Shown here: positions 4,740-18,814 of the stretch, piece by piece | Position numbering within the stretch: the first letter of the stretch is position 1 | Layout: each line of letters begins with the position of its first letter | Assembly: GCF_003226535.1 (NCBI RefSeq) | Contig: NZ_QKOB01000016.1 | Location: forward strand, 1 to 44,179 | DNA from: Meiothermus sp. Pnk-1 | GTDB lineage: Bacteria; Deinococcota; Deinococci; Deinococcales; Thermaceae | Reading direction: 5' to 3' | Length of the DNA: 44,179 bases | Program-made: the position numbers and the translations under genes | The notes under the pieces: generated by a model | What the model was told of the DNA's origin: nothing | Seen by the model: only the letters and a program-made list of their open reading frames with translations | Database searches by the model: none

Positions 4740-5159
4740 ATCTATGCGGACTCAGACGTCCTACGTCGTACGTCACACGTCATACAAAGGGGATCGGTCC
4801 CCCGGGTGTACGGCGGTACGCCGTCCCGAAGGGAATCTACCTCCAGGTGTACGGGCGTAGCCCGTCCCGAGACGCCACCCCACGGCTTACGCCGAAACAA
4901 GCGTCTCACTCCGCTCGGCGAAAGAAGCGTCACCCCACGGCTTGCGCCGAAACAAGCGTCTCGCTTCGCTCGGCGAAAGAAGCGTCTCCTTCGCCGCCGG
5001 TAGGCGGGGTAGGGGATCGTCCCCTGCGTGTAGCGTAAGACGTACGGCGTACGACGTACGACGTAAGTAGCGTTTAGCGTATAGCGTACGACGTATGACC
5101 TAAGTCACGTCTTGCGTTTTGCGTATTGCGTACGACGTACGACGTAGGACGTACGCGCA
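4740..5159. repeat. Composite intergenic repeat (heptamers, palindromes, 55-bp tandem unit)
   Basis: The 476-nt gap between the HAD gene and tsaC/sua5 is almost entirely repeat. In order: four exact heptamers of form ACGTCNN (4756-4783); GGGGATCGGTCCCC; two modules of the GTGTACGGGCGTAGCCCGTC type (from 4806 and 4847) separated by GGGAATCTACC; a 55-bp unit present twice in tandem (from about 4876 and 4931, sharing CACGGCTT.CGCCGAAACAAG); CCGCCGGTAGGCGGGGTA; GGGGATCGTCCCC (5012-5024); and a run of about 18 degenerate heptamers such as GCGTTTA, GCGTATA and CGACGTA (5026-5156). Short reading frames inside are low-complexity products of the repeat and are not called. A shorter inverted copy lies at 6890-7080. 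Confidence 0.85.
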
Positions 5160-7090: not shown

Positions 7091-8875
7091 TTAGGCCATT
7101 TCCGCCCGCTTGCGCTGGCTGGGGTCGAGCACCCGCTTGCGCAGGCGCAGGCTCTTGGGGGTGACCTCGAGCAGCTCGTCGGGGGCCAAGAACTCCAGGG
7201 CCTCCTCGAGCGTGAACTTGCGGGGCGGGATCAGGCGGATGTTCTCGTCGGAGCCGGCGGCGCGGATGTTGGTGAGCTTCTTGTTGAGGCAGACGTTGAC
7301 GTTGAGGTCGTTATCGCGGGAGTTCTCGCCCACGATCATGCCCACGTAGACCTCGGTACCGGGGTCGATGAAGAAGCGGATGCGCTCCTGTAGGCGGTGG
7401 AGGCTGTAGGCGAAGGCCACGCCCGCCTCCATGGCCACCGCGCTACCGGTGGTGCGGGTCTCGAGCGTGCCCACGTGTGGCCCATAGCCGTGGAAGGTGT
7501 GGCTCATCACGCCCTCGCCCGCCGTGAGCGTTAGGAAGAGGGTGCGGAAACCAAAAAGCGCCCGGGCCGGGAGGATGAAATCCGCGCGGACCCGCCCCTC
7601 GCCCTGATCCATGTGGACCATCTGGGCCTTGCGGGTACCCAGGGCCTCCATCACAGGGCCAAACTTGGCCTCGGGCACGTCCACCACCAGGTACTCGTAG
7701 GGCTCGTGCACCTGGCCCTCCACTTCCTTCAGCAGCACGCTGGGCTGGCCCACGCTGAACTCGAAGCCCTCGCGGCGCATAGTCTCGAGGAGCACCGCGA
7801 GGTGTAGCTCGCCGCGCCCATGCAGCTCGAAGGTATCGGGGGTGACCTCGATGACCCGCAGCGCCACGTTGGTCTCGAGCTCCTTCAAGAGCCGCTCGCG
7901 GATCTGGCGGCTGGTGACGAACTTACCCTCTCTGCCTGCGAAGGGTGAGGTGTTGGGGGTGAGGGTGAGGCTCACGGTGGGCTCGTCCACCGCCAGGCGA
8001 GGCAGGGCCTCGGGGGCTTCCTTGGCGGCGAGGGTGTCGCCGATCTCCACCCCCTCCATCCCGGCGATGGCCACGATGTCGCCAGGGGTGACTTCCTCGA
8101 CCTCCAGGCGCTCGAGCCCCTGGTGGGTGAAGGCCGCCACCACCTTGACGTCACGGCTCTCGTGCTCGCCCACGACGGTGATGACCTGGCCCTTGCGCAC
8201 GGTGCCGCGGTGCACCTTGCCGATGGCAATTTTGCCCAGAAAGCTGGAGTGGTCGAGGTTGGCCACGCGAAGCTGGAAGGGGCCCTCCTCGACGCGGGGG
8301 GCGGGGATGTGGCTGAGGATGACCTGGAAGAGCTCCTCGAGGTTGTCCTTGCGCTCGTTCAGCCAGGCCGCCCCCTCGCGCCCGATGGCGTAGAGGTAAG
8401 GGAAGTCGAGCTGCTCCTCGGAGGCGCCCAGCTCGGCCATGAGGTCGAAGGTTTCGTTCAGGACCTCGTCGGGGCGGGCGTCACGCTTGTCCACCTTGTT
8501 GACGACCACGATGGGCTTGAGCCCCGCCTCGAGGGCCTTCTTGAGCACGAAGCGGGTCTGGGGCATGGGACCCTCGGCAGCATCGACCAGCAACAGCACC
8601 CCGTCCACCATGGAGAGCGCCCGCTCGACCTCACCGCCGAAGTCGGCGTGGCCGGGGGTATCGACGATGTTGATCTTGACGTCGTTCCACACGACGGCGG
8701 TGTTCTTGGCCAAAATGGTGATGCCCCGCTCGCGCTCGAGGTCGTTCGAATCCATGATGCGCTCGCCTTCCGCGTCGTGGCGGGAGAGGGCTTTGGCCTG
8801 CTTGAGCATGGCATCGACGAGCGTGGTCTTGCCGTGGTCCACGTGCGCGATGATCGCGATGTTTCTGAGTTCCAT
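7091..8875 (-). CDS. typA: Ribosome-associated GTPase TypA/BipA
   Basis: Translational GTPase of the EF-G/LepA group that binds the 70S ribosome and helps growth under stress and 50S assembly. G1 is AHVDHGKTT (residues 9-17), switch I ERERGITILAKNT, G3 DTPGHADF, G4 NKVDKRDA. The C-terminal TypA-specific region has YEYLVVDVPEAKFGPVMEAL, GFRTLFLTLTAGEG and the RKRVLDPSQRKR tail. With the ATG at 8875 the protein is 594 aa, normal for the family, and AAGAGG precedes it. An in-frame ATG at 8941 would add 22 atypical residues. TACACT directly before 8941 probably serves as the -10 box, giving a leader of about 60 nt. Confidence 0.95.
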   Translation of the reverse strand: MELRNIAIIAHVDHGKTTLVDAMLKQAKALSRHDAEGERIMDSNDLERERGITILAKNTAVVWNDVKINIVDTPGHADFGGEVERALSMVDGVLLLVDAAEGPMPQTRFVLKKALEAGLKPIVVVNKVDKRDARPDEVLNETFDLMAELGASEEQLDFPYLYAIGREGAAWLNERKDNLEELFQVILSHIPAPRVEEGPFQLRVANLDHSSFLGKIAIGKVHRGTVRKGQVITVVGEHESRDVKVVAAFTHQGLERLEVEEVTPGDIVAIAGMEGVEIGDTLAAKEAPEALPRLAVDEPTVSLTLTPNTSPFAGREGKFVTSRQIRERLLKELETNVALRVIEVTPDTFELHGRGELHLAVLLETMRREGFEFSVGQPSVLLKEVEGQVHEPYEYLVVDVPEAKFGPVMEALGTRKAQMVHMDQGEGRVRADFILPARALFGFRTLFLTLTAGEGVMSHTFHGYGPHVGTLETRTTGSAVAMEAGVAFAYSLHRLQERIRFFIDPGTEVYVGMIVGENSRDNDLNVNVCLNKKLTNIRAAGSDENIRLIPPRKFTLEEALEFLAPDELLEVTPKSLRLRKRVLDPSQRKRAEMA

Positions 8876-9756: not shown

Positions 9757-10959
9757 ATGCCAGGGATCGCGATCATTGGAGCCCAATGGGGGGACGAGGG
9801 CAAAGGCAAGGTCACCGATGCCCTCGCGGAGGACGCCGACTTCGTGGTGCGCTACCAGGGGGGGGCCAACGCAGGCCACACCGTGGTAGCCCAAGGCCAG
9901 ACCTTTAAGCTGAACCTGCTGCCCACCGGGGTCATTCATCCGCAGGCCACCAACGTCCTGGGGGACGGAATGGTGATCGACGCCTTTCGCTTCGCCGAAG
10001 AGCTGGCCGATATTCGCGCCAAGGGCCTCGAGCCCAAAATCCTAGTCTCCGACAAGGCCCACCTGGTGCTGCCCCACCATAAAGCGGTGGAAAGCCGCAA
10101 CAACTTCGTGGGCACCACCAAGCGCGGCATCGGCCCGGCCTACTCGGATCGGGCCCGGCGGGTGGGCATACGGGTTGGGGATCTGCTAAGCGATGCGGTG
10201 CTGGCCGAGCGGGTCGAGACCCTGCTTGCCGAGAAGCCCAACTCGACCAGGGAAGCGGGCTGGGACACCCGTGAAAAGGCCCTGGCCGACCTCCACCGAA
10301 TGCGCGATATCCTGGCGCCTTTCATCGCAGATACCGGGCACCTGCTCCGCGAAGCCATCAAGCAGGGCAAGAAAGTGCTCTTCGAGGGAGCCCAAGCTAC
10401 CCTGCTCGACCTCAACTACGGGGATTATCCCTACGTGACCAGCTCCCATCCCACCGTGGGCGGGATCTTGGTGGGGGCCGGGGTCAACCACAAGGCCATC
10501 AACAAGGTCTACGGGGTGGCCAAGGCCTACGCCACCCGCGTGGGTAACGGCCCCTTCCCCACCGAGCTTCCCGAAGCCGAGGCAGAATTTTTGCGGCAGA
10601 AGGGGGGCGAGTTCGGGGTGACCACCGGTCGCCCCCGGCGTACCGGCTGGCTGGACCTGGTGCTCCTCAAGTACGCCTGTGAAGTGAACGGCTTTGACGG
10701 GCTGGTGTTGACCAAGCTCGACATCCTCTCGGGTTTCCCTAAAATCAAAGTAGGGATCGAGCACCGCCCCGATGGCACAGTGGGTTATGAAGAGCTCGAG
10801 GGCTGGGGCGAACTGGCCGGGATCCAAAGCCGCGAGGCCCTGCCGAAGAGCGTGCTGCGGCTGATCGAGCTGATCGAGGAATATACCCAGACCCCGGTGG
10901 TGATGTTCTCTACCAGCCCACGCCGCGAGGACACTTTCGGCGCGGTGAGCTGGGTCTGA
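9757..10959 (+). CDS. purA: Adenylosuccinate synthetase
   Basis: Condenses IMP and aspartate using GTP, the first committed step of AMP synthesis, in the cytoplasm. The N-terminal GTP site is GDEGKGK (residues 12-18, catalytic D13), followed by YQGGANAGHTVV with its catalytic His. Further signatures are GTTKRGIGPAYSDRARR, FEGAQATLLDLNYGDYPYVTSS and GVTTGRPRRTGWLDLV. At 400 aa it is shorter than E. coli PurA (432), which I take to be usual for Deinococcus-Thermus. It ends with SWV. It is followed by a short-form dispersed repeat and a strong terminator. Confidence 0.96.
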   Translation: MPGIAIIGAQWGDEGKGKVTDALAEDADFVVRYQGGANAGHTVVAQGQTFKLNLLPTGVIHPQATNVLGDGMVIDAFRFAEELADIRAKGLEPKILVSDKAHLVLPHHKAVESRNNFVGTTKRGIGPAYSDRARRVGIRVGDLLSDAVLAERVETLLAEKPNSTREAGWDTREKALADLHRMRDILAPFIADTGHLLREAIKQGKKVLFEGAQATLLDLNYGDYPYVTSSHPTVGGILVGAGVNHKAINKVYGVAKAYATRVGNGPFPTELPEAEAEFLRQKGGEFGVTTGRPRRTGWLDLVLLKYACEVNGFDGLVLTKLDILSGFPKIKVGIEHRPDGTVGYEELEGWGELAGIQSREALPKSVLRLIELIEEYTQTPVVMFSTSPRREDTFGAVSWV

Positions 10960-11087: not shown

Positions 11088-11142
11088 CGTCCTGGACTGG
11101 CGGGCCGTGAAGGATTCGAACCTCCGACACCTCGTTTTGGAG
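11088..11142. repeat. attL: 55-bp direct repeat containing the 3' part of tRNA-Trp
   Basis: This 55-bp stretch is identical to 18728-18782. It contains the encoded CCA, the acceptor 3' strand, the T arm and the anticodon arm up to the anticodon of tRNA-Trp on the minus strand, and then diverges. The tRNA 5' half is missing, so this copy is not a functional gene. It marks the left end of the integrated element. Confidence 0.88.
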
Positions 11143-11165
11143 GAGGCTACCTGCTCTCCGGCAGC

Positions 11166-11271
11166 TTACGGCTACCTACGGATATGCCCTTGCTTATCGG
11201 CAAAACGGCGAGTGTGTTTACGGCTACTTTCGGCTGTTTTCGGAGCCATAAACCGTAGATAAACCGTAAAC
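11166..11271. promoter_or_regulatory. Putative integrase arm-type sites, left end
   Basis: TTACGGCTAC occurs as a direct repeat at 11166-11175 and 11218-11227. CCATAAACCGTAGAT with a second AACCGTAAA lies at 11246-11271. The latter block is repeated next to the integrase stop codon at 18666-18692. Paired short repeats inside both ends of an element are typical of tyrosine-integrase arm sites. Confidence 0.55.
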
Positions 11272-11317
11272 TTCCAGGGCCGTTTTTTGCGATAAGAGCC
11301 CCCTTTGTGAGGGGTGA

Positions 11318-11323
11318 TAGAAT
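11318..11323 (+). promoter_or_regulatory. Possible -10 box for the leftmost element gene
   Basis: TAGAAT lies in the 266-nt gene-free stretch between attL and the first gene of the element. No convincing -35 box is seen. Confidence 0.3.
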
Positions 11324-11408
11324 AAGCAAAATCCCCCTGGCCGAAACCAGGAGGAGCCTTCGTGGGGCTCACTCATTCTACACCGGCCACGGGGAGGGAG
11401 GGCAACCC

Positions 11409-12155
11409 GTGGCCGATACCTTCACAAACCACCAAGAGCACGCGCAGGCTTGGCGCAGGTGGCACGCCTGGCGGTATGTCCTGCGCGCCGTGAACGACCT
11501 AGCGCCGGAAGTGCTGAAAGACCTCGCCGGGCTGTTGCCCACCTACCAGGGCGCCACCCGGTATCGAGACGACCCGGGCATCTACTTGAGTGATTGGGAG
11601 GGGCTGTGTGAGAGCCAGGCTGTGCTGGCCTACGCCAGGCTCGAGGACTTACCCCCTGGGCGGTGGAGGGACGGGCTGAAAGCGCTGGACGAGCTACAGC
11701 ACGCTTTGGTGCGCTGGGCCACCGGATGGAACCTGAACCACCCCCGGGTGCTGGACTGGGCGCTGCAACACCTGGACATGTGGGCGAGGATGCCGGAGCA
11801 CACCGGCAAGCCGATACCGCTGTACTGGGGGCCGGTTGTGGTTGTGCCCCCAACACCGCGCTTTACCACGCCGGAGTTTGCCTTACCTATCCACGGTGGA
11901 GAGAAAACCGGCGACTGGCGCACCGTGGAGGCCCGCCTGCGTGAGGCGGTCGAGGCGTGGCTAGGCGAGTACAGGGCGCTGTGGCACGCCTGGGCGCTGC
12001 CGAACCAGGAGCTCCAAAAACACGCCAGATGGTGGGTGCTGCGCGTGGTCAAGGGCCTCTCGTATACCACAATCGCTGACCAGGGCGAGGAGCCCCTGAC
12101 CGATGACGCGGTACGGAAAGCGGTAGAACGCCTGAGCCGGGAGCTCAGCAAGTAA
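11409..12155 (+). CDS. Element protein of unknown function (248 aa)
   Basis: First gene of the integrated element. The GTG at 11409 is preferred because GGGAGGGAGGG lies just upstream; the frame is open further back, without a better start. I do not recognise the family. The protein is Trp-rich in the N-terminal half (AWRRWHAWRYVLRAVNDL) and acidic/basic mixed. The last ~55 residues (QELQKHARWWVLRVVKGL, then a loop and DDAVRKAVERLSREL) could form a small helix-turn-helix, suggesting DNA binding at low confidence. It is followed by its own strong terminator, so it forms a separate transcription unit from the replication operon. Confidence 0.6.
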   Translation: MADTFTNHQEHAQAWRRWHAWRYVLRAVNDLAPEVLKDLAGLLPTYQGATRYRDDPGIYLSDWEGLCESQAVLAYARLEDLPPGRWRDGLKALDELQHALVRWATGWNLNHPRVLDWALQHLDMWARMPEHTGKPIPLYWGPVVVVPPTPRFTTPEFALPIHGGEKTGDWRTVEARLREAVEAWLGEYRALWHAWALPNQELQKHARWWVLRVVKGLSYTTIADQGEEPLTDDAVRKAVERLSRELSK

Positions 12156-12156
12156 A

Positions 12157-12194
12157 GCGGACACGGGGTTGAACTTTCCGTGTCCGCGCTTTTT
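12157..12194 (+). terminator. Rho-independent terminator after the first element gene
   Basis: A perfect 10-bp stem GCGGACACGG / CCGTGTCCGC is followed by GCTTTTT, two nucleotides after the stop codon. Confidence 0.85.
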
Positions 12195-12207
12195 CGGCTT
12201 GGGTGCC

Positions 12208-12224
12208 CCATGCTCAAAGCATGG
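12208..12224. promoter_or_regulatory. Palindrome across the start of the excisionase-like gene
   Basis: A perfect inverted repeat, CCATGCT / AGCATGG with a 3-nt centre, covers the ATG at 12221. CATGCT (12209-12214) also stands 6 nt before the ATG, where leaderless genes in this window have their -10 box. It may be an autoregulatory operator or a start-masking hairpin. Confidence 0.45.
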
Positions 12225-12427
12225 AAAAGAAACCGCTATACACGGTTGAACAGGTGCGGCGATTGGTGGGTATAGACGTGCTAGGCCGGGACGTGGCCTA
12301 TAAACTCGCGCGCACACACGGTTTTCGGTTGGGCAAGCGCTGGGTGCTGCCCGCCCGCGTGGTGGAAGCGCTGATGGATGGGCGCTTGCCGGAAGAGGAA
12401 GACCCCGCCGGTCAGGGCGGGGCTTGA
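12221..12427 (+). CDS. Small winged-helix DNA-binding protein, excisionase/AlpA-like
   Basis: A 68-aa protein with the layout of the excisionase-type MerR-like winged helix: YTVEQVRRLVGIDVLGRDVAYKL (helix-turn-helix), then GFRLGKRWVLPARVVEALMDG (wing and second helix). The acidic tail reads EEEDPA. In an element with a tyrosine integrase it is a good candidate for the recombination directionality factor or an AlpA-type activator (inference). The ATG at 12221 is preferred over an in-frame GTG at 12203. It lies directly after a terminator, so it probably opens the replication operon; the next gene overlaps or starts within 15 nt of its stop. Confidence 0.65.
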   Translation: MEKKPLYTVEQVRRLVGIDVLGRDVAYKLARTHGFRLGKRWVLPARVVEALMDGRLPEEEDPAGQGGA

Positions 12428-12441
12428 GAAAGGGGTGCGCT

Positions 12442-12900
12442 GTGGTCCCTGAACGCATTCTACACGATAGGCTAGCCTTTCTCGCCTACTTTCCGGCAGA
12501 ACAGCGCTCCACAGGCGCAAACCTGCTGCTCGAGGCGGTGCGCGCCGGGTGCTCCGAGCCTCACCAGGTTGTGGGGTTTGCCCTCGAGCGGGCCAACCGG
12601 CGCCATTGGAGCGAGGCCGCCCACACGCTGCGGCTGCTGGCCGAGCTCGACCCCGAGGCCCTGCTGGCCGGTGCGCGCTGGGCATTGTGGTGGGAAGCGC
12701 TGCCCTGGGCTGAGCGGCAACGGCTCAAAGCCGAGCGCGCAACCGAGGCCCTCGAGCGCCACATGCAGGAGTTGCCGCCGACCGAAAAACAACTGGCCTA
12801 CCTGCACCGGCTGGGGCACCGTGGCCCGGTGCCAATCAGCCGGCTCGAGGCAAGCCGCCTGATTGACGCGCTACTCAAGGGGGTAAACCGTGCGTCCTGA
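12442..12900 (+). CDS. Element protein of unknown function with C-terminal TEKQ motif
   Basis: A 152-aa protein starting at the GTG at 12442, preceded by AAAGGGG; an in-frame TTG at 12424 is a weaker alternative. The N-terminal two thirds are predicted helical and charged (PEALLAGARWALWWEAL). The C-terminus, PTEKQLAYLHRLG followed by EASRLIDALL, is a motif I have seen in many phage and plasmid replication-associated proteins; its function is not known to me. It overlaps the primase-helicase start by 11 nt, so the two are probably translationally coupled and may work together in replication. Confidence 0.6.
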   Translation: MVPERILHDRLAFLAYFPAEQRSTGANLLLEAVRAGCSEPHQVVGFALERANRRHWSEAAHTLRLLAELDPEALLAGARWALWWEALPWAERQRLKAERATEALERHMQELPPTEKQLAYLHRLGHRGPVPISRLEASRLIDALLKGVNRAS

Positions 12901-15900
12901 GCGCATCCCCTCGAGCTTGCGCGCCCTCGAGCGCTGGACACTGTGGCGCTACGAGGAGCGCGACGGCAGGAAAACCAAGGTTCCCTACCGGCCTGACGGC
13001 ACGCTGGCCAAGTCCAACGACCCGGCCACGTGGTGCTCGCTCGATGACGCCTTGAAGGCCCTCAAGACCGGGCGTTTTGCCGGGTTGGGGTTTGTGCTGG
13101 GGGACGGTATCACCGGAATCGACCTCGATTGGAAGGAATATCCCGGTGAGGGTGTCCCGACCGAAGCCCGGACCATCGTGGACCGGCTCGACTCTTACGT
13201 GGAGTGGTCACCCTCCGGCAAGGGCTGCCACATCCTGTTGCACGGCAAGCTGCCCGAAGGGTGCCGCAACCGCAAGCAGCTGGCCCCCGGCGTGGAGCTG
13301 GAGGTGTACGACCGTGGCCGGTTCTTTACCTTCACCGGCCATCGGTGGGAAGGGTACCCCGACGATCTCCAGGAGTGCCAGACCGAGCTAGAGGCTTTGC
13401 TAGCCGACCTGGAGCTGTTGGTGTCCACAGCACTGGCACCAGCTCCAGCACCGGCACCCCACCCTGTGGCGCTGGACGACAAGGCCCTGTTAGAAAAGGC
13501 GTTCGCCGCCAAAAACGGGGCCGACGTACGCCGTTTGTGGGAGGGGGATACCAGCGGCTACCGCTCGCAGTCCGAGGCCGATTTGGCCCTCGCGGGCCAC
13601 CTGATGTTCTGGTGCGGCAACGACACCGCCCGGGCTGACCGGCTGTTTCGGCAGTCAAAGTTGTACCGGCCCAAGTGGGACGAAAAACACCACGCTGACG
13701 GGCGAACCTACGGGCAGGCCACCCTCGAGAAGGCCCGCTCAAGTAGTCCCTACAACCCACAGCACCCACACGTGGCCGGTGCTGGCCCCCGTACCCCGCT
13801 CGATGAGCGCACGGGAGGCGGGCAGGTGCTGGGGGAGCCGCGCTACAAGGTGGAGCACGGGCAGATTCTGGCGGCCAAAGTGGAGGGCCGAGGCGAGGCC
13901 CAGGCCGTGACCTACTACCCGTTGAGCAACTTCGCCGCCGCGATTCGCCGGGAGGTGGTGGCTACCGACGGGCTCGAGAGCGAGGTGCTGTTCGAGCTCG
14001 AGGGCTACACCGCCACAGGTCGCGCCCTGCCTGTGGCCCAGGTGCGGGCCGCTGAGTTTGCATCCATGAACTGGGTAACCAAGCACTGGGGCTCAGAGGC
14101 CGTGGTGCAACCCGGGCAGGGGGCCAAAGACCACCTGCGCGCCGCGATTCAGTATTTGTCGCTCGGGCTGACCACCCGCGCTACGGTGCATAAACACCTG
14201 GGGTGGGCCAAGGTGGGCGGCCACCACGTGTACCTGCACGCTGGGGGGGGCATCGGACCTGACGGTGCGGTGCCCGGGCTCGAGGTGGACCCAGGCCGTG
14301 CGCTGAGCGGCTTTATCCTGCCCGAGCCCCCCACCGGCGAGGCCGAGCGGGAGGCCATCCTTCAACTGTGGGAGCTCCGGCACCTGGCCCCTGCGCGGGT
14401 GACGGTGCCCCTTATCCTCTATAGTCTGGCCGCACCGCTGGGCCACACCCCCTTCTCGCTCTACTTGAGCGGGCCAACCGGTGCCCGAAAAACCAGCCTG
14501 GCCCTGGTGCTCCAAAGCCTGTGGGGGGGGCACGACGCGCCGCCCACCGGCTGGGAGGCCACCGCCAACGCCCTCGAGGGGAGCGCCTTCACCGCCAAGG
14601 ACAGCTTGCTGTTGATAGACGACTACGCCCCCCAAAACGCCGAGGGCAGGCAAAAAGAGCTCCAGGCCAAGGCCGCCCGGTTGCTGCGCAACCAGGGCAA
14701 CGGGGTTGGGCGGCTACGTATGCGGGCTGACGGCAGTCTGGCCCCCGACAAGCCCCCGCGCGGCAGTCTGCTTATCACCGGCGAGGACCTACCCCCCGGC
14801 CACAGTGTGAGAGCACGGTGCCTGTTTCTCGAGCTCGAGCGGGGAGACGTAGACCTCGAGCGGCTGTCTCGCGCCCAGGCCCTGGCCCGTGACGGGGTGT
14901 ACGCCCAGGCCCTGGGCGCATGGGTGCGGTACCTGGCCCGGGCCCTCGAGGACCACCAGGCCCGGCTCACCCGGCGTGTGGCCGAGCTTCGCCCGCGCTG
15001 GAGCGCCGAGCATGGCCGTACCACTGACGCCCTGGCCCGGCTACACGCCACCTGGGAGACTTACCGCGTCTATGCCGCCACGGTGGGGGTGGAGCTCCAG
15101 GCCCTCGAGGCCGGGGTGCTGGAAGCGCTGGAGCAGGTGCGCACCGCCCAGGCTCAGCACCACAAGGACGCCGACCCCGCCGAGCGGTTTGGCGCGCTGC
15201 TGTTCGCCGCCCTGCGCATGGGCCGCGCTCACCTGGTGCCCACAGATTGGCGAGCCGGGCAATCCGTAGAGGATTACCTGACCCACCCCGCAAGCTGGGG
15301 TTGGCAGTACCACGAACCCACCAGCAGCAGCGACTTTGCCGCCGGGGTGTGGCGGCCACAAGGCCCGGCCATCGGCTGGATACCCAGTGACCCCGAGACC
15401 CACGGTATCTACCTCGACCCCAAAGCCGCCTACGCCGTGCTCGCCCGGCTGGCCGGGGAGACCGGCGAACCCCTGCCCACCGAGCGCACCCTGTGGAAGC
15501 GGCTGGGCGAGGCCGGGGCTATCCGCACACAGGCTGACGGGGAGTCTGTCCGGTATCAGGCCCGGGTGAGGATAGGCGGGGAACTCCACCGGGTTGTGCA
15601 TGTCCTAGGGCCTTATATCGGGAAAACCGGGAACACCGGGAACAACACGACAAACACCGTCCAGGACGACACAAAACCTGTTCCCGGTTTTTCATCTGTT
15701 CCCGGTAGCGACCGGGAACAAAACCCCGACCCCGACACGCCGCCTGTGGTGTTCCCGGAAGCGACCGGGAACAACCCAGAAACCGGGAACAGCCTAAACT
15801 CTGTCCAGGACGACAAAAACTCGCCTGTTCCCGGTGTTCCCGGTTTTGCGGATAGGAGACCCCTAGGGTTCGCGCAACCCCCCGAGGATGAGGACGGTGA

Positions 15901-15922
15901 GTGGGAGGTGGTGGAGCTATGA
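12890..15922 (+). CDS. Primase-polymerase / SF3-like helicase fusion, element replicase
   Basis: Large replication protein (1010 aa) starting at a GTG with AAGGGGG upstream. Residues ~1-165 resemble the primase-polymerase domain of NrS-1-type mobile-element proteins (GLGFVLGDGITGIDLDWKE with the acidic metal residues, then SPSGKGCHILLHGKLP). Residues ~200-285 resemble the helix-bundle domain that follows it (YRSQSEADLALAGHLMFWCG to KWDEKHHADGRTYGQATL). Residues ~480-670 form a DUF927/D5-like ATPase: Walker A SGPTGARKTS from residue 527, Walker B LLLIDDYAP (D577, D578), and a sensor-like GSLLITGEDLP. The last ~110 residues are a disordered linker of TGN and VPG repeats encoded by the 10-bp motif array, with a short acidic end. 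Inferred role: origin-specific priming and unwinding for the excised element. Confidence 0.82.
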   Translation: MRPERIPSSLRALERWTLWRYEERDGRKTKVPYRPDGTLAKSNDPATWCSLDDALKALKTGRFAGLGFVLGDGITGIDLDWKEYPGEGVPTEARTIVDRLDSYVEWSPSGKGCHILLHGKLPEGCRNRKQLAPGVELEVYDRGRFFTFTGHRWEGYPDDLQECQTELEALLADLELLVSTALAPAPAPAPHPVALDDKALLEKAFAAKNGADVRRLWEGDTSGYRSQSEADLALAGHLMFWCGNDTARADRLFRQSKLYRPKWDEKHHADGRTYGQATLEKARSSSPYNPQHPHVAGAGPRTPLDERTGGGQVLGEPRYKVEHGQILAAKVEGRGEAQAVTYYPLSNFAAAIRREVVATDGLESEVLFELEGYTATGRALPVAQVRAAEFASMNWVTKHWGSEAVVQPGQGAKDHLRAAIQYLSLGLTTRATVHKHLGWAKVGGHHVYLHAGGGIGPDGAVPGLEVDPGRALSGFILPEPPTGEAEREAILQLWELRHLAPARVTVPLILYSLAAPLGHTPFSLYLSGPTGARKTSLALVLQSLWGGHDAPPTGWEATANALEGSAFTAKDSLLLIDDYAPQNAEGRQKELQAKAARLLRNQGNGVGRLRMRADGSLAPDKPPRGSLLITGEDLPPGHSVRARCLFLELERGDVDLERLSRAQALARDGVYAQALGAWVRYLARALEDHQARLTRRVAELRPRWSAEHGRTTDALARLHATWETYRVYAATVGVELQALEAGVLEALEQVRTAQAQHHKDADPAERFGALLFAALRMGRAHLVPTDWRAGQSVEDYLTHPASWGWQYHEPTSSSDFAAGVWRPQGPAIGWIPSDPETHGIYLDPKAAYAVLARLAGETGEPLPTERTLWKRLGEAGAIRTQADGESVRYQARVRIGGELHRVVHVLGPYIGKTGNTGNNTTNTVQDDTKPVPGFSSVPGSDREQNPDPDTPPVVFPEATGNNPETGNSLNSVQDDKNSPVPGVPGFADRRPLGFAQPPEDEDGEWEVVEL
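15626..15844. repeat. Ten-copy inverted iteron array inside the replicase gene
   Basis: ACCGGGAACA occurs at 15626, 15635, 15711, 15764 and 15782. Its complement TGTTCCCGGT occurs at 15679, 15697, 15750 (last base differs), 15826 and 15835. The outer pairs are overlapping tandem dimers in opposite orientation. GTCCAGGACGAC occurs at 15659 and 15803 on either side of the core. Inner copies at 15697/15711 form a perfect inverted repeat with a 4-nt gap, and 15750/15764 a near-perfect one. The arrangement is close to mirror-symmetric and looks like an initiator-binding array (putative origin) or a strong single-strand folding site. Confidence 0.8.
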
Positions 15923-16233
15923 ACCCCTGGGCCATCCTCACCGCCCAGGTGCCCCAACTGGTGGCCCGGCTCGAGGCCCACCCCCACCCCCTACTCACCG
16001 TGGAGGTTGACGGCGAGGTGGTGGCCCGGCTGGTGCGTCCAAGCCGGGCTGACCTCGAGGCCCACGCCCGGTGGCCGGGGATGCCCCGGCTCACCGCCGA
16101 GGGGTGGCTGCTCAAGGCGCTGGGCAAACTGGCGCACCGGTGCCCAACCCCACAGGTGAGTGTGGCCTTGTATGCGGGCCGCACCCGGGTTGCGCTGGTG
16201 CAACGCAAGCGGGAGGCGACCTATGCCCGGTAG
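15919..16233 (+). CDS. Small element protein of unknown function (104 aa)
   Basis: The start ATG overlaps the replicase stop codon (ATGA), indicating translational coupling. No recognisable domain. An N-terminal helix (WAILTAQVPQLVARLEAH) is followed by strand-like segments (LLTVEVDGEVVARLVRP and VSVALYAGRTRVALVQRK), so an alpha/beta fold is likely. A basic C-terminus (RKREATYAR) could contact nucleic acid. It sits between the replicase and a nuclease, which suggests an accessory replication or recombination role, but this is only from context. Confidence 0.6.
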   Translation: MNPWAILTAQVPQLVARLEAHPHPLLTVEVDGEVVARLVRPSRADLEAHARWPGMPRLTAEGWLLKALGKLAHRCPTPQVSVALYAGRTRVALVQRKREATYAR

Positions 16234-16528
16234 AGCCCCCAAACGCAAGGGTGACCGCGTGGAGCGCGAGGTGGTCACGCTACTGAAAGCCCACGGCCTC
16301 GAGGCCCGCCGTGTACCACTTTCCGGTGCTGCCCCCGGCTGGAGCGGTGACGTGGTAGTCACGCTGCCCCGGATAGGGACAGCGCGGGTTGAAGTTAAGA
16401 GCCGCAAACACTTCAAGACCCTCGAGGGCTGGCTTGAAGGTAGCGACCTGCTGGTGCTCAAGCCCGACCGCAGGCCGCCCCTGGTGGTGCTGCCCCTGTC
16501 GCGGTTGCTCGAGGTGTTGGATGAGTAA
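16223..16528 (+). CDS. PD-(D/E)XK nuclease, Holliday-junction-resolvase-like
   Basis: A 101-aa protein with the arrangement of small PD-(D/E)XK resolvases: N-terminal basic helix KRKGDRVEREVVTLLKAHG (conserved Glu), then RRVPLSGAAPGWSGDVVV with the metal-binding Asp, and RVEVKSRK giving the E-x-K pair. The C-terminal part (WLEGSDLLVLKPDRRPPLVVLPLSRLL) matches the second half of archaeal Hjc and phage resolvases. It overlaps its upstream neighbour by 11 nt with GGGAGG before the ATG. In the element it probably resolves or trims replication and recombination intermediates. A VRR-NUC-type nuclease is the alternative. Confidence 0.72.
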   Translation: MPGRAPKRKGDRVEREVVTLLKAHGLEARRVPLSGAAPGWSGDVVVTLPRIGTARVEVKSRKHFKTLEGWLEGSDLLVLKPDRRPPLVVLPLSRLLEVLDE

Positions 16529-17192
16529 GTACCCCAAACTCTCAGAGGCCCTGCACCGCTTGCTCGAGGCTGGCCCCTGGACGGGCACACCCCGCGACCT
16601 GTGGAAGGCCCTCGAGGGCTACCGGCAAGAGCCCTGGCCCGCTAACCCGGTAGCCCTGTCCTTGTGGTTGAGGCATCACGCTCACCGGCACGGGCTGGGG
16701 GTGACGCTAGGCCACAATGGAGAACACCGGTTTGTGCGTCTAGCACGTGTGTCTAACGGGTTAGTGCCCAATCCGGTATCGGCGCATAGCGCCGCGTTTC
16801 GCAAGATAGCGCAACAACCCCGCACCGGCGAAGTGGAACATAACGGAACAGAATCACAACCCGTCACCGGGGTTCCGGGACATACCGGGACACCCCCCGA
16901 TTTCTGGAGCTTCACGAGCTGGCCCGAGCTCGAGGCCGCCCTGCCACGAATCCTCGAGGCCCTGGGCCCTCGAGGCCCGTTCACCCTGGCCTTCAAACAG
17001 ATGAGGCCATACGGACCCGGTACCACCAGCACCGGCAACGAGGCCCGGTACCTACCCGCGCTGGTGCGCGACTGGGCTGCCCGGCACCCTGACGCGCTCG
17101 AGATTCGCCTGTGGCCCAGGTACGTGGATATCGTCCGCGAGTGGCCGCTGGACGGTGCTACACCGCTTGTCCCAGACACGACGGGGGGCTAA
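16521..17192 (+). CDS. Element protein with winged-helix-like N-terminus and iteron-like linker
   Basis: A 223-aa protein of no recognised family, overlapping the nuclease gene by 8 nt. Residues ~1-75 (LHRLLEAGPWTGTPRDLWKALEG, then PVALSLWLRHHAHRHGLGV, HRFVRLAR) resemble the small winged-helix modules found at the C-terminal end of primase-helicases of other elements. A linker containing PVTGVPGHTGTPP follows, encoded by a small cluster of GGGACA/GGAACA direct repeats. The C-terminal ~95 residues (WSFTSWPELEAALPRILEAL to VDIVREWPLDG) are unknown. The similarity of its linker to the replicase linker suggests the two proteins act at the same DNA motif (inference). Confidence 0.6.
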   Translation: MSKYPKLSEALHRLLEAGPWTGTPRDLWKALEGYRQEPWPANPVALSLWLRHHAHRHGLGVTLGHNGEHRFVRLARVSNGLVPNPVSAHSAAFRKIAQQPRTGEVEHNGTESQPVTGVPGHTGTPPDFWSFTSWPELEAALPRILEALGPRGPFTLAFKQMRPYGPGTTSTGNEARYLPALVRDWAARHPDALEIRLWPRYVDIVREWPLDGATPLVPDTTGG

Positions 17193-17199
17193 GTGGATA

Positions 17200-17225
17200 T
17201 TTCCCCTAATGCAAATTAGCGGAAA
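17200..17225. promoter_or_regulatory. 26-bp palindromic operator upstream of the RHH-integrase operon
   Basis: TTTCCCCTAAT and ATTAGCGGAAA are inverted around GCAA with a single mismatch. The palindrome lies 8 nt after the upstream stop codon and just upstream of the expected -35 position for the -10 box at 17250, where a repressor or activator would act. Confidence 0.6.
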
Positions 17226-17249
17226 TGTTTTCATTGAGTCCCACAATGC

Positions 17250-17255
17250 TATGAT
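17250..17255 (+). promoter_or_regulatory. Leaderless -10 box of the RHH-integrase operon
   Basis: TATGAT ends 6 nt before the ATG at 17262 with no Shine-Dalgarno sequence. No good -35 hexamer is seen at 17 bp, consistent with activator dependence. Confidence 0.5.
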
Positions 17256-17261
17256 GAATCT

Positions 17262-17501
17262 ATGCCCAACAGAGAACACCATGTGGCTAGGGTACGCCCA
17301 TCCAAAGAGCGCCGCCTGGCCGCGCTGGGGCTCGAGCCCTTAGCCCCTAACGAGGTCAGCGCTCGAGTCAGAATGCGGCTGGACAGGGAGGTGGCCGCCC
17401 TGCTCGAGGGGCTAACCCCCGCTCAACGCGGTGAGGTGCTGGTGGCCGGACTCAAGGTGCTGGGATTTTTGCGGGAGGCCGGAGATGGCGAGGCGGGGTA
17501 A
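17262..17501 (+). CDS. Small putative ribbon-helix-helix regulator of the element
   Basis: A 79-aa protein. The core SARVRMRLDREVAALLEGL followed by AQRGEVLVAGLKVLGFL has the strand-helix-helix pattern of CopG/MetJ-type DNA-binding proteins. The basic N-terminus (RVRPSKERRLAALG) is unusual for the fold and may be a second DNA contact. It overlaps the integrase start by 17 nt, so both are made from one transcript. The 26-bp palindrome 36 bp upstream is its most likely target. A repressor that controls integrase, or an integrase accessory factor, is inferred; the fold assignment is tentative. Confidence 0.55.
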   Translation: MPNREHHVARVRPSKERRLAALGLEPLAPNEVSARVRMRLDREVAALLEGLTPAQRGEVLVAGLKVLGFLREAGDGEAG

Positions 17502-18663
17502 AGGTGGCGGGACGACCTACTACCACAAGGGCTCGAGGCGCTGGTGCGCTGAACTGAACCTGGGCTTTGACGCCCAGGGCAAGCCGCTACGGGTGCGGGC
17601 CTACCACAAGACCCGCCGGGAGGCCGAGGCGTGGCTGGCCGAACAGGCCGCCCTATACCACAAGGGGCTGCTGGCCGACCCCAGCAAGCTCACCCTGAGG
17701 GAGTGGGCGGAAAGGTGGCTCGAGCGCAAGGCCAAGGAGGTGCGCCCACGCACCGCCGAGCTGTACCGGCTCGAGCTGTCCTACGCCCTGCCCTCGCTCA
17801 AAGACCCCGAGGCCCGCGACCCGTTAGGCGCGAAGCCCCTGCAAGACGTGAAGCCCGCCCACCTCCGCGCGGTGCTGGACGGGCTCATGGAGCGTTACAG
17901 CCTGCGCACCGTGAAGATGGTGCGGCAGAAGCTCCACACCCTCTTTGAGGAAGCGCTGCACCTCGAGCTTATCTACAGAAGCCCCGTCGCGCCGGTGCGG
18001 ATCAAGGCCCCCAGGGGACAGGCCAAGCCCAAGGCCGGTAGAGCCCTCGAGCCCCACGAGCTGAGCGCCCTGCTCGCCGCCCTCGACCAGCACCAAGACC
18101 CCCGCACCGCGCTAGCCCTGCGGTTGATGCTGGCCTGTGGCTTGCGCCGGGGTGAGGCGCTGGGGCTGCAATGGGCTGACCTCGACCTCGAGGCCGGGAC
18201 GCTCACCGTGCGCCGGGCCTGGACGGAGAACGGCAACCACAGGGGGGTAAGCCTGCCCAAGACCGCCACATCCGAGCGTACCGTGCCTATCCCTCACGCC
18301 ACCCTCGCGCGCCTGAAAGCCTACCGGCTGTGGTACACCGAGCGGCTGGGAGACCCGAGGCCGGATAGCTGGCTTTTTCCCGGCAACGACCCCAGCAAGC
18401 CGCTCAACCCCCACGCGCCCAACTGGGCCTTGAAACGGATCACCGAGCGGCTGGGTATTCCACCGCTTCGAGTCCACGACCTCAGGCACTCCTACGGTAG
18501 CCACATGCTGGCCCAGGGTGCCCCCCTCGAGCTGGTGGCCGAACGCATGGGCCACGCCAACCCCAATATCACCCTGGAAACTTACAGACATTTGCTCGAG
18601 CACGAGCGCCGGGGTTGGGTCCTTGACCCCGAGGATTTGCTGGCCCCTCGAGCCAAGGCTTGA
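17485..18663 (+). CDS. Tyrosine recombinase/integrase of the tRNA-Trp element
   Basis: A 392-aa phage-type integrase that would cut and rejoin attP and the tRNA-Trp attB. The N-terminal arm-binding region (GGTTYYHKGSRRWCAELNLG, residues ~7-55) is AP2-like, followed by a SAM-like core-binding domain (LTLREWAERWLERKAKEV, about residues 70-170). The catalytic domain has R221 (CGLRRGEALGLQW), H331 and R334 (HDLRHSYG), H357 (MGHANPNITLETY) and nucleophile Y367. The ATG at 17485 is chosen because GGGAGG precedes it and the upstream in-frame codons overlap the RHH gene. It ends 3 nt before the right arm sites and 75 nt before the tRNA 3' end. All catalytic residues are intact, so the element may still be mobile. 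Confidence 0.95.
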   Translation: MARRGKGGGTTYYHKGSRRWCAELNLGFDAQGKPLRVRAYHKTRREAEAWLAEQAALYHKGLLADPSKLTLREWAERWLERKAKEVRPRTAELYRLELSYALPSLKDPEARDPLGAKPLQDVKPAHLRAVLDGLMERYSLRTVKMVRQKLHTLFEEALHLELIYRSPVAPVRIKAPRGQAKPKAGRALEPHELSALLAALDQHQDPRTALALRLMLACGLRRGEALGLQWADLDLEAGTLTVRRAWTENGNHRGVSLPKTATSERTVPIPHATLARLKAYRLWYTERLGDPRPDSWLFPGNDPSKPLNPHAPNWALKRITERLGIPPLRVHDLRHSYGSHMLAQGAPLELVAERMGHANPNITLETYRHLLEHERRGWVLDPEDLLAPRAKA

Positions 18664-18665
18664 GC

Positions 18666-18692
18666 CCATAAACCGTAGAATCACCGTAAAAC
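18666..18692. promoter_or_regulatory. Putative integrase arm-type site, right end
   Basis: CCATAAACCGTAGAA followed by TCACCGTAAAAC matches the block at 11246-11271 near the left end. It lies directly after the integrase stop codon. Confidence 0.55.
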
Positions 18693-18698
18693 GACCAG

Positions 18699-18726
18699 CC
18701 CGAGGGCAAGGCACCCTCGGGTTTTT
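18699..18726 (+). terminator. Rho-independent terminator of the integrase operon
   Basis: An 8-bp stem CCCGAGGG / CCCTCGGG with a 7-nt loop is followed by TTTTT. It separates the element operon from the oppositely oriented tRNA-Trp. Confidence 0.88.
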
Positions 18727-18727
18727 G

Positions 18728-18782
18728 CGTCCTGGACTGGCGGGCCGTGAAGGATTCGAACCTCCGACACCTCGTTTTGGAG
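18728..18782. repeat. attR: 55-bp direct repeat within tRNA-Trp
   Basis: Identical to 11088-11142. The element supplies the tRNA 3' part here, restoring an intact tRNA gene; identity ends at the anticodon. Confidence 0.88.
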
Positions 18783-18814
18783 ACGAGTGCTCTACCGGGC
18801 TGAGCTAACGGCCC
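18738..18814 (-). tRNA. tRNA-Trp (anticodon CCA)
   Basis: A 77-nt cloverleaf on the minus strand: acceptor GGGCCGT / ACGGCCC, D arm GCTC / GAGC, anticodon stem CTCGT / ACGAG with loop CTCCAAA (anticodon CCA), T arm GGAGG / CCTTC with TTCGAAT loop, discriminator G and encoded CCA. It is the attachment site of the adjacent element, which overlaps it from the anticodon to the 3' end. It has its own promoter upstream, so it is not disrupted. Confidence 0.97.

Follow-up and report, generated by a model that had tools for sequence, protein, structure and literature searches.

ICETh2 of Thermus thermophilus HB27 and its homologues in the Thermales are elements of 7.5-12 kb that occupy the 3' end of a tRNA gene, carry a repeat of 45-50 bp, and encode an integrase (Int) and an excisionase together with a primase and a helicase (PMC7693054). 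Putative relatives of ICETh2 have been reported from Thermus and from four Meiothermus genomes, those of Meiothermus with primase-DUF927 fusions of 970-1000 aa in structures resembling integrative and conjugative elements (ICEs) (PMC7693054), and related primases sit in integrated elements, some of them cryptic, often in tRNA genes (Kazlauskas et al., PMC5862659). No origin of replication is described in the ICETh2 paper, from whose text the words "iteron" and "repeats" are absent (PMC7693054). In staphylococcal pathogenicity islands (SaPIs) the origin lies just 3' of rep, where oppositely oriented repeats load head-to-head helicases (PMC7581432, PMC6092414, PMC9894130), and the Cch2 helicase of staphylococcal cassette chromosome (SCC) modules binds iterons directly 3' of its own gene through its C-terminal domain (PMC7581432). 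Here we describe a 7.7-kb element (11088-18782) in a 44,179-nt stretch of DNA from Meiothermus sp. Pnk-1 (the window). The kind of element is already known, and that of the window belongs with the ICETh2-like elements, Meiothermus members included. Our reading, to which we assign a probability of roughly 0.8, is that a SaPI-type replicon is carried here by an ICETh2-like integrative element of Thermaceae, which would excise, replicate from a SaPI-like double-hexamer origin, and move with outside help.

A mirrored iteron array in the primase-helicase gene

The primase-helicase that the preliminary description of the element had recognized is its 1010-aa protein, which can now be identified, from profile matches and a predicted structure, as an NrS-1-type primase fused to a DUF927 helicase nearest to SaPIbov1 Rep and SCCmec Cch. 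Its N-terminus matches the solved NrS-1 primase 6k9a (4.6e-42) and the SaPI5 primase-helicase PriRep1 7ola (2.8e-25), both homologous in their N-terminal primase, although a helicase of Rep/Cch type fits the model better than their helicase parts do. By profile, the helicase part matches SCCmec Cch 5dgk (3e-5) and the SaPI protein 8tch (5e-5), and the predicted model, with a predicted local distance difference test score (pLDDT) of 92.7, finds SaPIbov1 Rep 8tch (2.0e-12) and Cch 5dgk (3.0e-12) as its best folds, its helicase part ending in a winged-helix-like arrangement. The SCCmec modules share this Cch-type helicase (PMC7581432) but differ in having Ccr recombinases, other primases and, in Cch2, another helicase family. 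A Pfam Prim-Pol match at residues 798-870 was judged spurious, since the model places that stretch in the C-terminal part of the helicase, and PDB profile matches to choline-binding-type repeats were dismissed as low-complexity.

In its last ~100 codons the helicase gene harbors ten ACCGGGAACA decamers, nine exact and one with a single mismatch, five on the > strand (starting at 15626, 15635, 15711, 15764 and 15782) and five on the < strand (15679, 15697, 15750, 15826 and 15835), all ten mirrored about base 15735; the protein tail encoded downstream ends acidic in most sibling elements. CCGGGAACA occurs ten times in the window, always within the array, and the tandem iteron pair occurs exactly in the 3.5-Mb genome only there. 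Iteron pairs across the dyad are 96-100% complementary and the spacers 27-47%, a difference that favors binding sites for a protein over a hairpin alone. Several copies do not follow the reading frame and bring in codons, GTT for Val and GGT for Gly, that the rest of the gene seldom uses. A repetitive peptide as the source of the array was rejected because the copies lie in several frames and on both strands and use unusual codons. Multiple specific repeats within an initiator gene, in a number that 0/200 shuffles reached, are what an iteron origin is expected to display, and on these sequence grounds the array looks like a candidate for the replication start site of the element. We found no earlier description of this candidate origin. 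Initiator sites within the initiator's own coding sequence are familiar from the lambda-type origin inside gene O, where the proteins are unrelated and direct iterons are combined with an AT-rich region.

With the replicons of SaPIs and of phage-inducible chromosomal islands (PICIs) the window shares the helicase fold (8tch best), the position of the iterons at the 3' end of rep, and the opposite orientation of the repeats; the PICI order of pri-rep followed by an iteron origin is likewise present at the sequence level, with the candidate origin in-gene. It differs in that the array lies inside coding sequence, forms an exact ten-site dyad, and has its two arms around a GC-rich instead of an AT-rich centre, and in that no satellite packaging or repressor genes were recognized.

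Two GTCCAGGAC boxes share the dyad centre with the iterons. GTCCAGGACGNNAAAA has three copies in the genome, one at each attachment (att) site and one at the right-arm box of the origin (15803-15811), and CCA followed by TCCAGGACG has matches in 34 of 50 Thermaceae genomes, mostly at tRNA genes. (Genomes and compared loci are given G- and L-numbers, G000 being the genome of the window.) In G023 and G037 the tRNA-Trp gene, beside which no element was seen, lacks the box; that of G038 has it, together with an integrase remnant. Variants of the box are found, too, in origin regions of ICE-type elements whose recombinase is of the serine type, so that the box is not most simply read as an integrase site.

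Conservation of the array and change of the iteron word

The same array is found in seven further Thermaceae genes, in six of which every site is mirrored (8/11 in the seventh, L032). Its spacing is 9,45,18,13,40,13,18,45,9 in the window, L031, L034 and L035, 9,45,18,12,42,12,18,45,9 in L033 and L036, and slightly shorter in L037, and the iteron word varies among three motifs, ACCGGGAAC, ACCGGTAAC or AGTGGGAAC. When the 500-bp stretch after the helicase homology was compared with 200 shuffles in 30 homologues, the observed 8-mer count was reached by 0/200 shuffles in 25 of them, the homologues being related and hence not independent. Roughly mirrored clusters extend to homologues from metagenome bins assigned to Armatimonadota, Bacillota, Planctomycetota, Methylococcaceae, Thiocapsa and Anaerolineae, within the open frame in some and 3' of the stop codon in others.

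The replicases of L031 and L032, which have different iterons, are 97, 81, 86 and 90% identical in successive blocks up to residue 874 and 38% identical in residues 875-906, and the same drop is seen between L033 and L034, suggesting, and only suggesting, that the iteron word may change along with this wing sequence. We hold the odds to be slightly in favor of a wider rule, by which small replicons across several phyla may place a dyad-symmetric double-hexamer origin within the 3' coding end of their own Rep/Cch-type helicase gene, the iteron word shifting along with the wing of the adjacent winged helix as positions and protein tail stay the same, and a second box, GTCCAGGACG, tying the origin to the att sites.

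Several observations weigh against these interpretations. The dyad is 59% GC and lacks the AT-rich centre of PICI origins; clusters are weak in L056, L067 and L064 (count reached by 2, 3 and 9 of 200 shuffles) and absent from the distant homologues L061 and L066 (195/200 each). Covariation with the wing is not clean, as the window and L035 differ in iterons yet are 69% identical in residues 875-906, and mean identity there is 0.53 for the same iteron and 0.47 for different ones. In ICETh2, deletion of ppol did not lower the amount of excised form, and post-excision replication is low if any (PMC7693054); the ICETh2 helicase is a different protein from that of the window. Lastly, the array folds strongly as single-stranded DNA (z -10.7) and lies within a transcribed gene, as would suit an RNA or cruciform structure that regulates downstream genes and is not an origin. 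We consider this very improbable: in most elements the spacers pair near chance while the sites remain mirrored, the cluster lies 3' of the stop codon in several homologues, and the position of the array agrees with known SaPI origins.

Integration site, genes and sibling elements

The two 55-bp repeats that bound the element are identical at 55/55 positions, and identity stops sharply at both ends; they contain the 3' part of tRNA-Trp plus 10 bp of trailer (CGTCCTGGAC, + strand), and ARAGORN finds one tRNA-Trp, on the minus strand. Repeat comparison, ARAGORN and the PF00589 match thus bear out the exact repeats and the intact integrase adjoining the tRNA that had been described at the outset, and the empty tRNA-Trp site that had been looked for exists in a genome of the same genus (G023), where purA, ~220 bp and an intact tRNA-Trp follow one another without the element. 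Neither conservation of the region everywhere without its 55-bp boundary nor capsid or terminase genes in close relatives, either of which would have spoken against a mobile element, was encountered. The motif and spacing of the possible integrase arm sites are the same at both ends of L035, whose integrase resembles that of the window at its N-terminus. Elsewhere at tRNA-Trp, G023 has, opposite the att side of the tRNA, an unrelated insert of ~1.1 kb that separates the tRNA from a MerR-like gene (L077), and G038 has a C-terminal integrase fragment (L079, 1022-1147) that a related element at this site probably left behind.

Coordinates of the element's genes, borders and candidate sites in the window
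Feature	Position	Strand	Remarks
att repeat distal to tRNA	11088..11142		55/55 match to 18728-18782; copies tRNA-Trp 3' part and trailer
Possible integrase arm sites, left end, CCATAAACCGTAGATAAACCGTAAA, ~11-bp period	11246..11270	+	direct repeat with 18666-18690
282-aa protein	11307..12155	+	C-terminal helix-turn-helix (HTH)-like segment related to L035
Excisionase-like small HTH protein	12221..12427	+	HTH_17 E=0.0039, phrog_66 E=0.023; positional counterpart in ten elements
All-helical protein, 152-158 aa	12442..12900	+	family in 12 Thermaceae genomes, homologues 62-72% identical
1010-aa primase-helicase	12890..15922	+	NrS-1-type archaeo-eukaryotic primase (AEP) ~1-290, Rep/Cch-type helicase ~315-905, tail of ~100 residues
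Candidate replication origin, ten ACCGGGAACA iterons	15626..15844		10/10 mirrored; geometry conserved; 0/200 shuffles reach count
GTCCAGGAC box, left arm of candidate origin	15659..15667		mirrors 15803-15811
GTCCAGGAC box, right arm of candidate origin	15803..15811		mirrors 15659-15667
104-aa protein	15919..16233	+	common to tRNA-type elements and ICE-type regions
Hjc/RusA-like Holliday-junction resolvase (PDDEXK type)	16223..16528	+	PF01870 1.2e-5; phrog_244 6.8e-13
223-aa protein	16521..17192	+	homologues in three sibling elements, 38-40% identity
79-aa protein	17262..17501	+	precedes int in six elements
Tyrosine integrase, 392 aa from ATG (410 aa from upstream GTG)	17485..18663	+	phage type; PF00589 1.9e-31
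Possible integrase arm sites, right end	18666..18690	+	direct repeat with 11246-11270
att repeat overlapping intact tRNA	18728..18782		identical to 11088-11142
tRNA-Trp (CCA), intact	18738..18814	-	ARAGORN

Nine plausible genes lie between the repeats, all on the + strand. As the preliminary description had stated for structural and transfer genes, no capsid, terminase or transfer gene was recognized among them. The excisionase-like assignment gains weak but consistent support from its two profile matches and from the small HTH protein at the matching place in ten elements, and the resolvase-like nuclease has found its family, Hjc/RusA-like; the 79-aa protein, once labelled ribbon-helix-helix-like, has no database match that would confirm the label. 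Five proteins had been set down as unrecognizable, which is in part a limit of the databases, because several of them recur in sibling elements. PADLOC and NCBIfam were uninformative on the uncharacterized proteins. The 152-158 aa helical protein gave a model of pLDDT 89, for which a fold search returned no match.

When the 1010-aa protein was searched against 111 genomes from the order, relatives turned up in 21. Ten elements, including that of the window, have a repeat of a tRNA 3' end, so that the search for related elements proposed at the start yielded nine more of the same plan, in the tRNA genes for Lys (L031, L035), Val (L032, L033, L044), Met (L034, L046), Ala (L037) and Leu (L043) of Thermaceae. 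All ten measure 7-9 kb and encode an integrase and a replicase along with a small HTH protein. Primase parts are swapped from member to member: the window, L031 and L032 have the NrS-1 type; the replicases of L033 and L034 have a different AEP-like N-terminus; L037 has a separate gene that reads, by inspection, like a CHC2/Toprim primase; and in L046 the primase is encoded separately and the helicase is a different one. Like ICETh2, the window element has the tRNA 3'-end repeat at both borders, the integrase on the tRNA side, and both primase and helicase, here as the 1010-aa fusion with an NrS-1-type primase. It differs from ICETh2 in that primase type and in occupying tRNA-Trp rather than tRNA-Val, and ICETh2 encodes its helicase separately.

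The family also has relics, namely the integrase fragment of G038 and the replicase gene of L035, in which a frameshift at a run of C (10280-10400), either real or a sequencing error, interrupts the reading frame. It is nonetheless rather doubtful that the window element is itself an immobile relic that has lost excision, as its two att repeats match exactly and its integrase, replicase and nuclease showed neither a stop nor a frameshift.

Among further repeats noted along the way, a k-mer scan revealed a CGTACGAC-like cluster at 5040-5150 of the window, with 5 copies in 300 bp, and CGTACGAC or its reverse complement has nine copies in the whole window. The same genome holds a second tRNA-type element, at tRNA-Leu (L043, 8736-15909 of G000:C1), with an N-terminal primase 76-77% identical to that of the window, a different helicase half, and TCCGGAGA repeats just 3'. 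In L044, a 222-aa open reading frame just 3' of the replicase gene contains GCACTGAC repeats at 8400-8700, as many as 9 in 300 bp, possibly an origin in another coding frame.

Proposed life cycle and routes of transfer

By analogy with the SaPI and SCC modules (PMC7581432, PMC6092414, PMC9894130), it may be proposed that the iterons are bound and load a double hexamer, that the excised element replicates, and that a helper transfers it. Int and the small HTH protein would carry out integration and excision at the 3' end of tRNA-Trp. Once the element is free, the primase-helicase would bind the ten iterons in the 3' end of its own gene through its C-terminal winged-helix-like domain; through the mirror order of the iterons, two helicase hexamers would be loaded facing opposite ways and would then open the DNA. 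The fused AEP primase would make primers, a host polymerase would complete synthesis, and the Hjc-like nuclease would resolve junctions. Since the element has no recognized transfer or packaging genes of its own, exit from the cell would require a helper route, which could be a phage or else competence combined with a resident ICE or DNA-donation system. The preliminary description had proposed a satellite- or plasmid-like element that replicates after excision and spreads with help from another. Integration into a tRNA gene, compactness, the absence of recognized structural genes and a replication function agree with this view, and its replicative part is strengthened by the SaPI-type helicase and the candidate origin; spread via another element is something we, too, can only infer.

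One such route is conjugation or transjugation, with the element as a passenger mobilized by a co-resident ICE, like the interdependent ICETh1 and ICETh2 (PMC7693054). The ICE-like regions L038-L042 combine a serine recombinase with a homologous helicase and its own TCCCAAC/CTCCCTAC-type clusters, and one of them lies in the same genome (G000:C4; L042, L080), followed by VirB4/TraG-like and type IV secretion system (T4SS) coupling-protein genes, making it a candidate helper and nothing more. The element itself has no recognized relaxase or T4SS genes in 11088-18782, as an ICE would. Against passage by this route, no relaxase was recognized among the proteins scanned, the ICE iterons are of the other types, and the ICE recombinase is a serine one, which leaves mobilization by an ICE at a little under an even chance.

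A phage satellite of the PICI kind would replicate its SaPI-like replicon on induction by a helper phage and be packaged in helper particles. The SaPI-like Rep and origin layout would fit, as would a size and gene content suited to satellites of 7-20 kb and an integrase 55-56% identical to those of the Thermus phages Riverbug and Lalka. We nevertheless regard a phage satellite as unlikely. Neither terS nor a capsid or capsid-remodelling gene was recognized among the element's proteins, nor was a divergent repressor (stl/rpr), every called gene lying on the + strand; DNA similarity to phages is confined to the integrase; no phage or viral-contig relative of the 152-158 aa helical protein was found when searched for; and a single viral contig codes for a homologue of the helicase, 29% identical.

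With the mirrored array, the ICETh2-like elements, whose replication has so far been in doubt, gain a concrete candidate origin, in which a single stretch of DNA is apparently under both coding and origin constraint. According to published descriptions, SaPI-type Rep helicases load themselves, and PICI origins have two iteron groups around an AT-rich stretch. A fixed geometry with changing letters, in thermophiles whose proteins are typically stable, would make iteron binding, double-hexamer loading and the switch of specificity directly testable.

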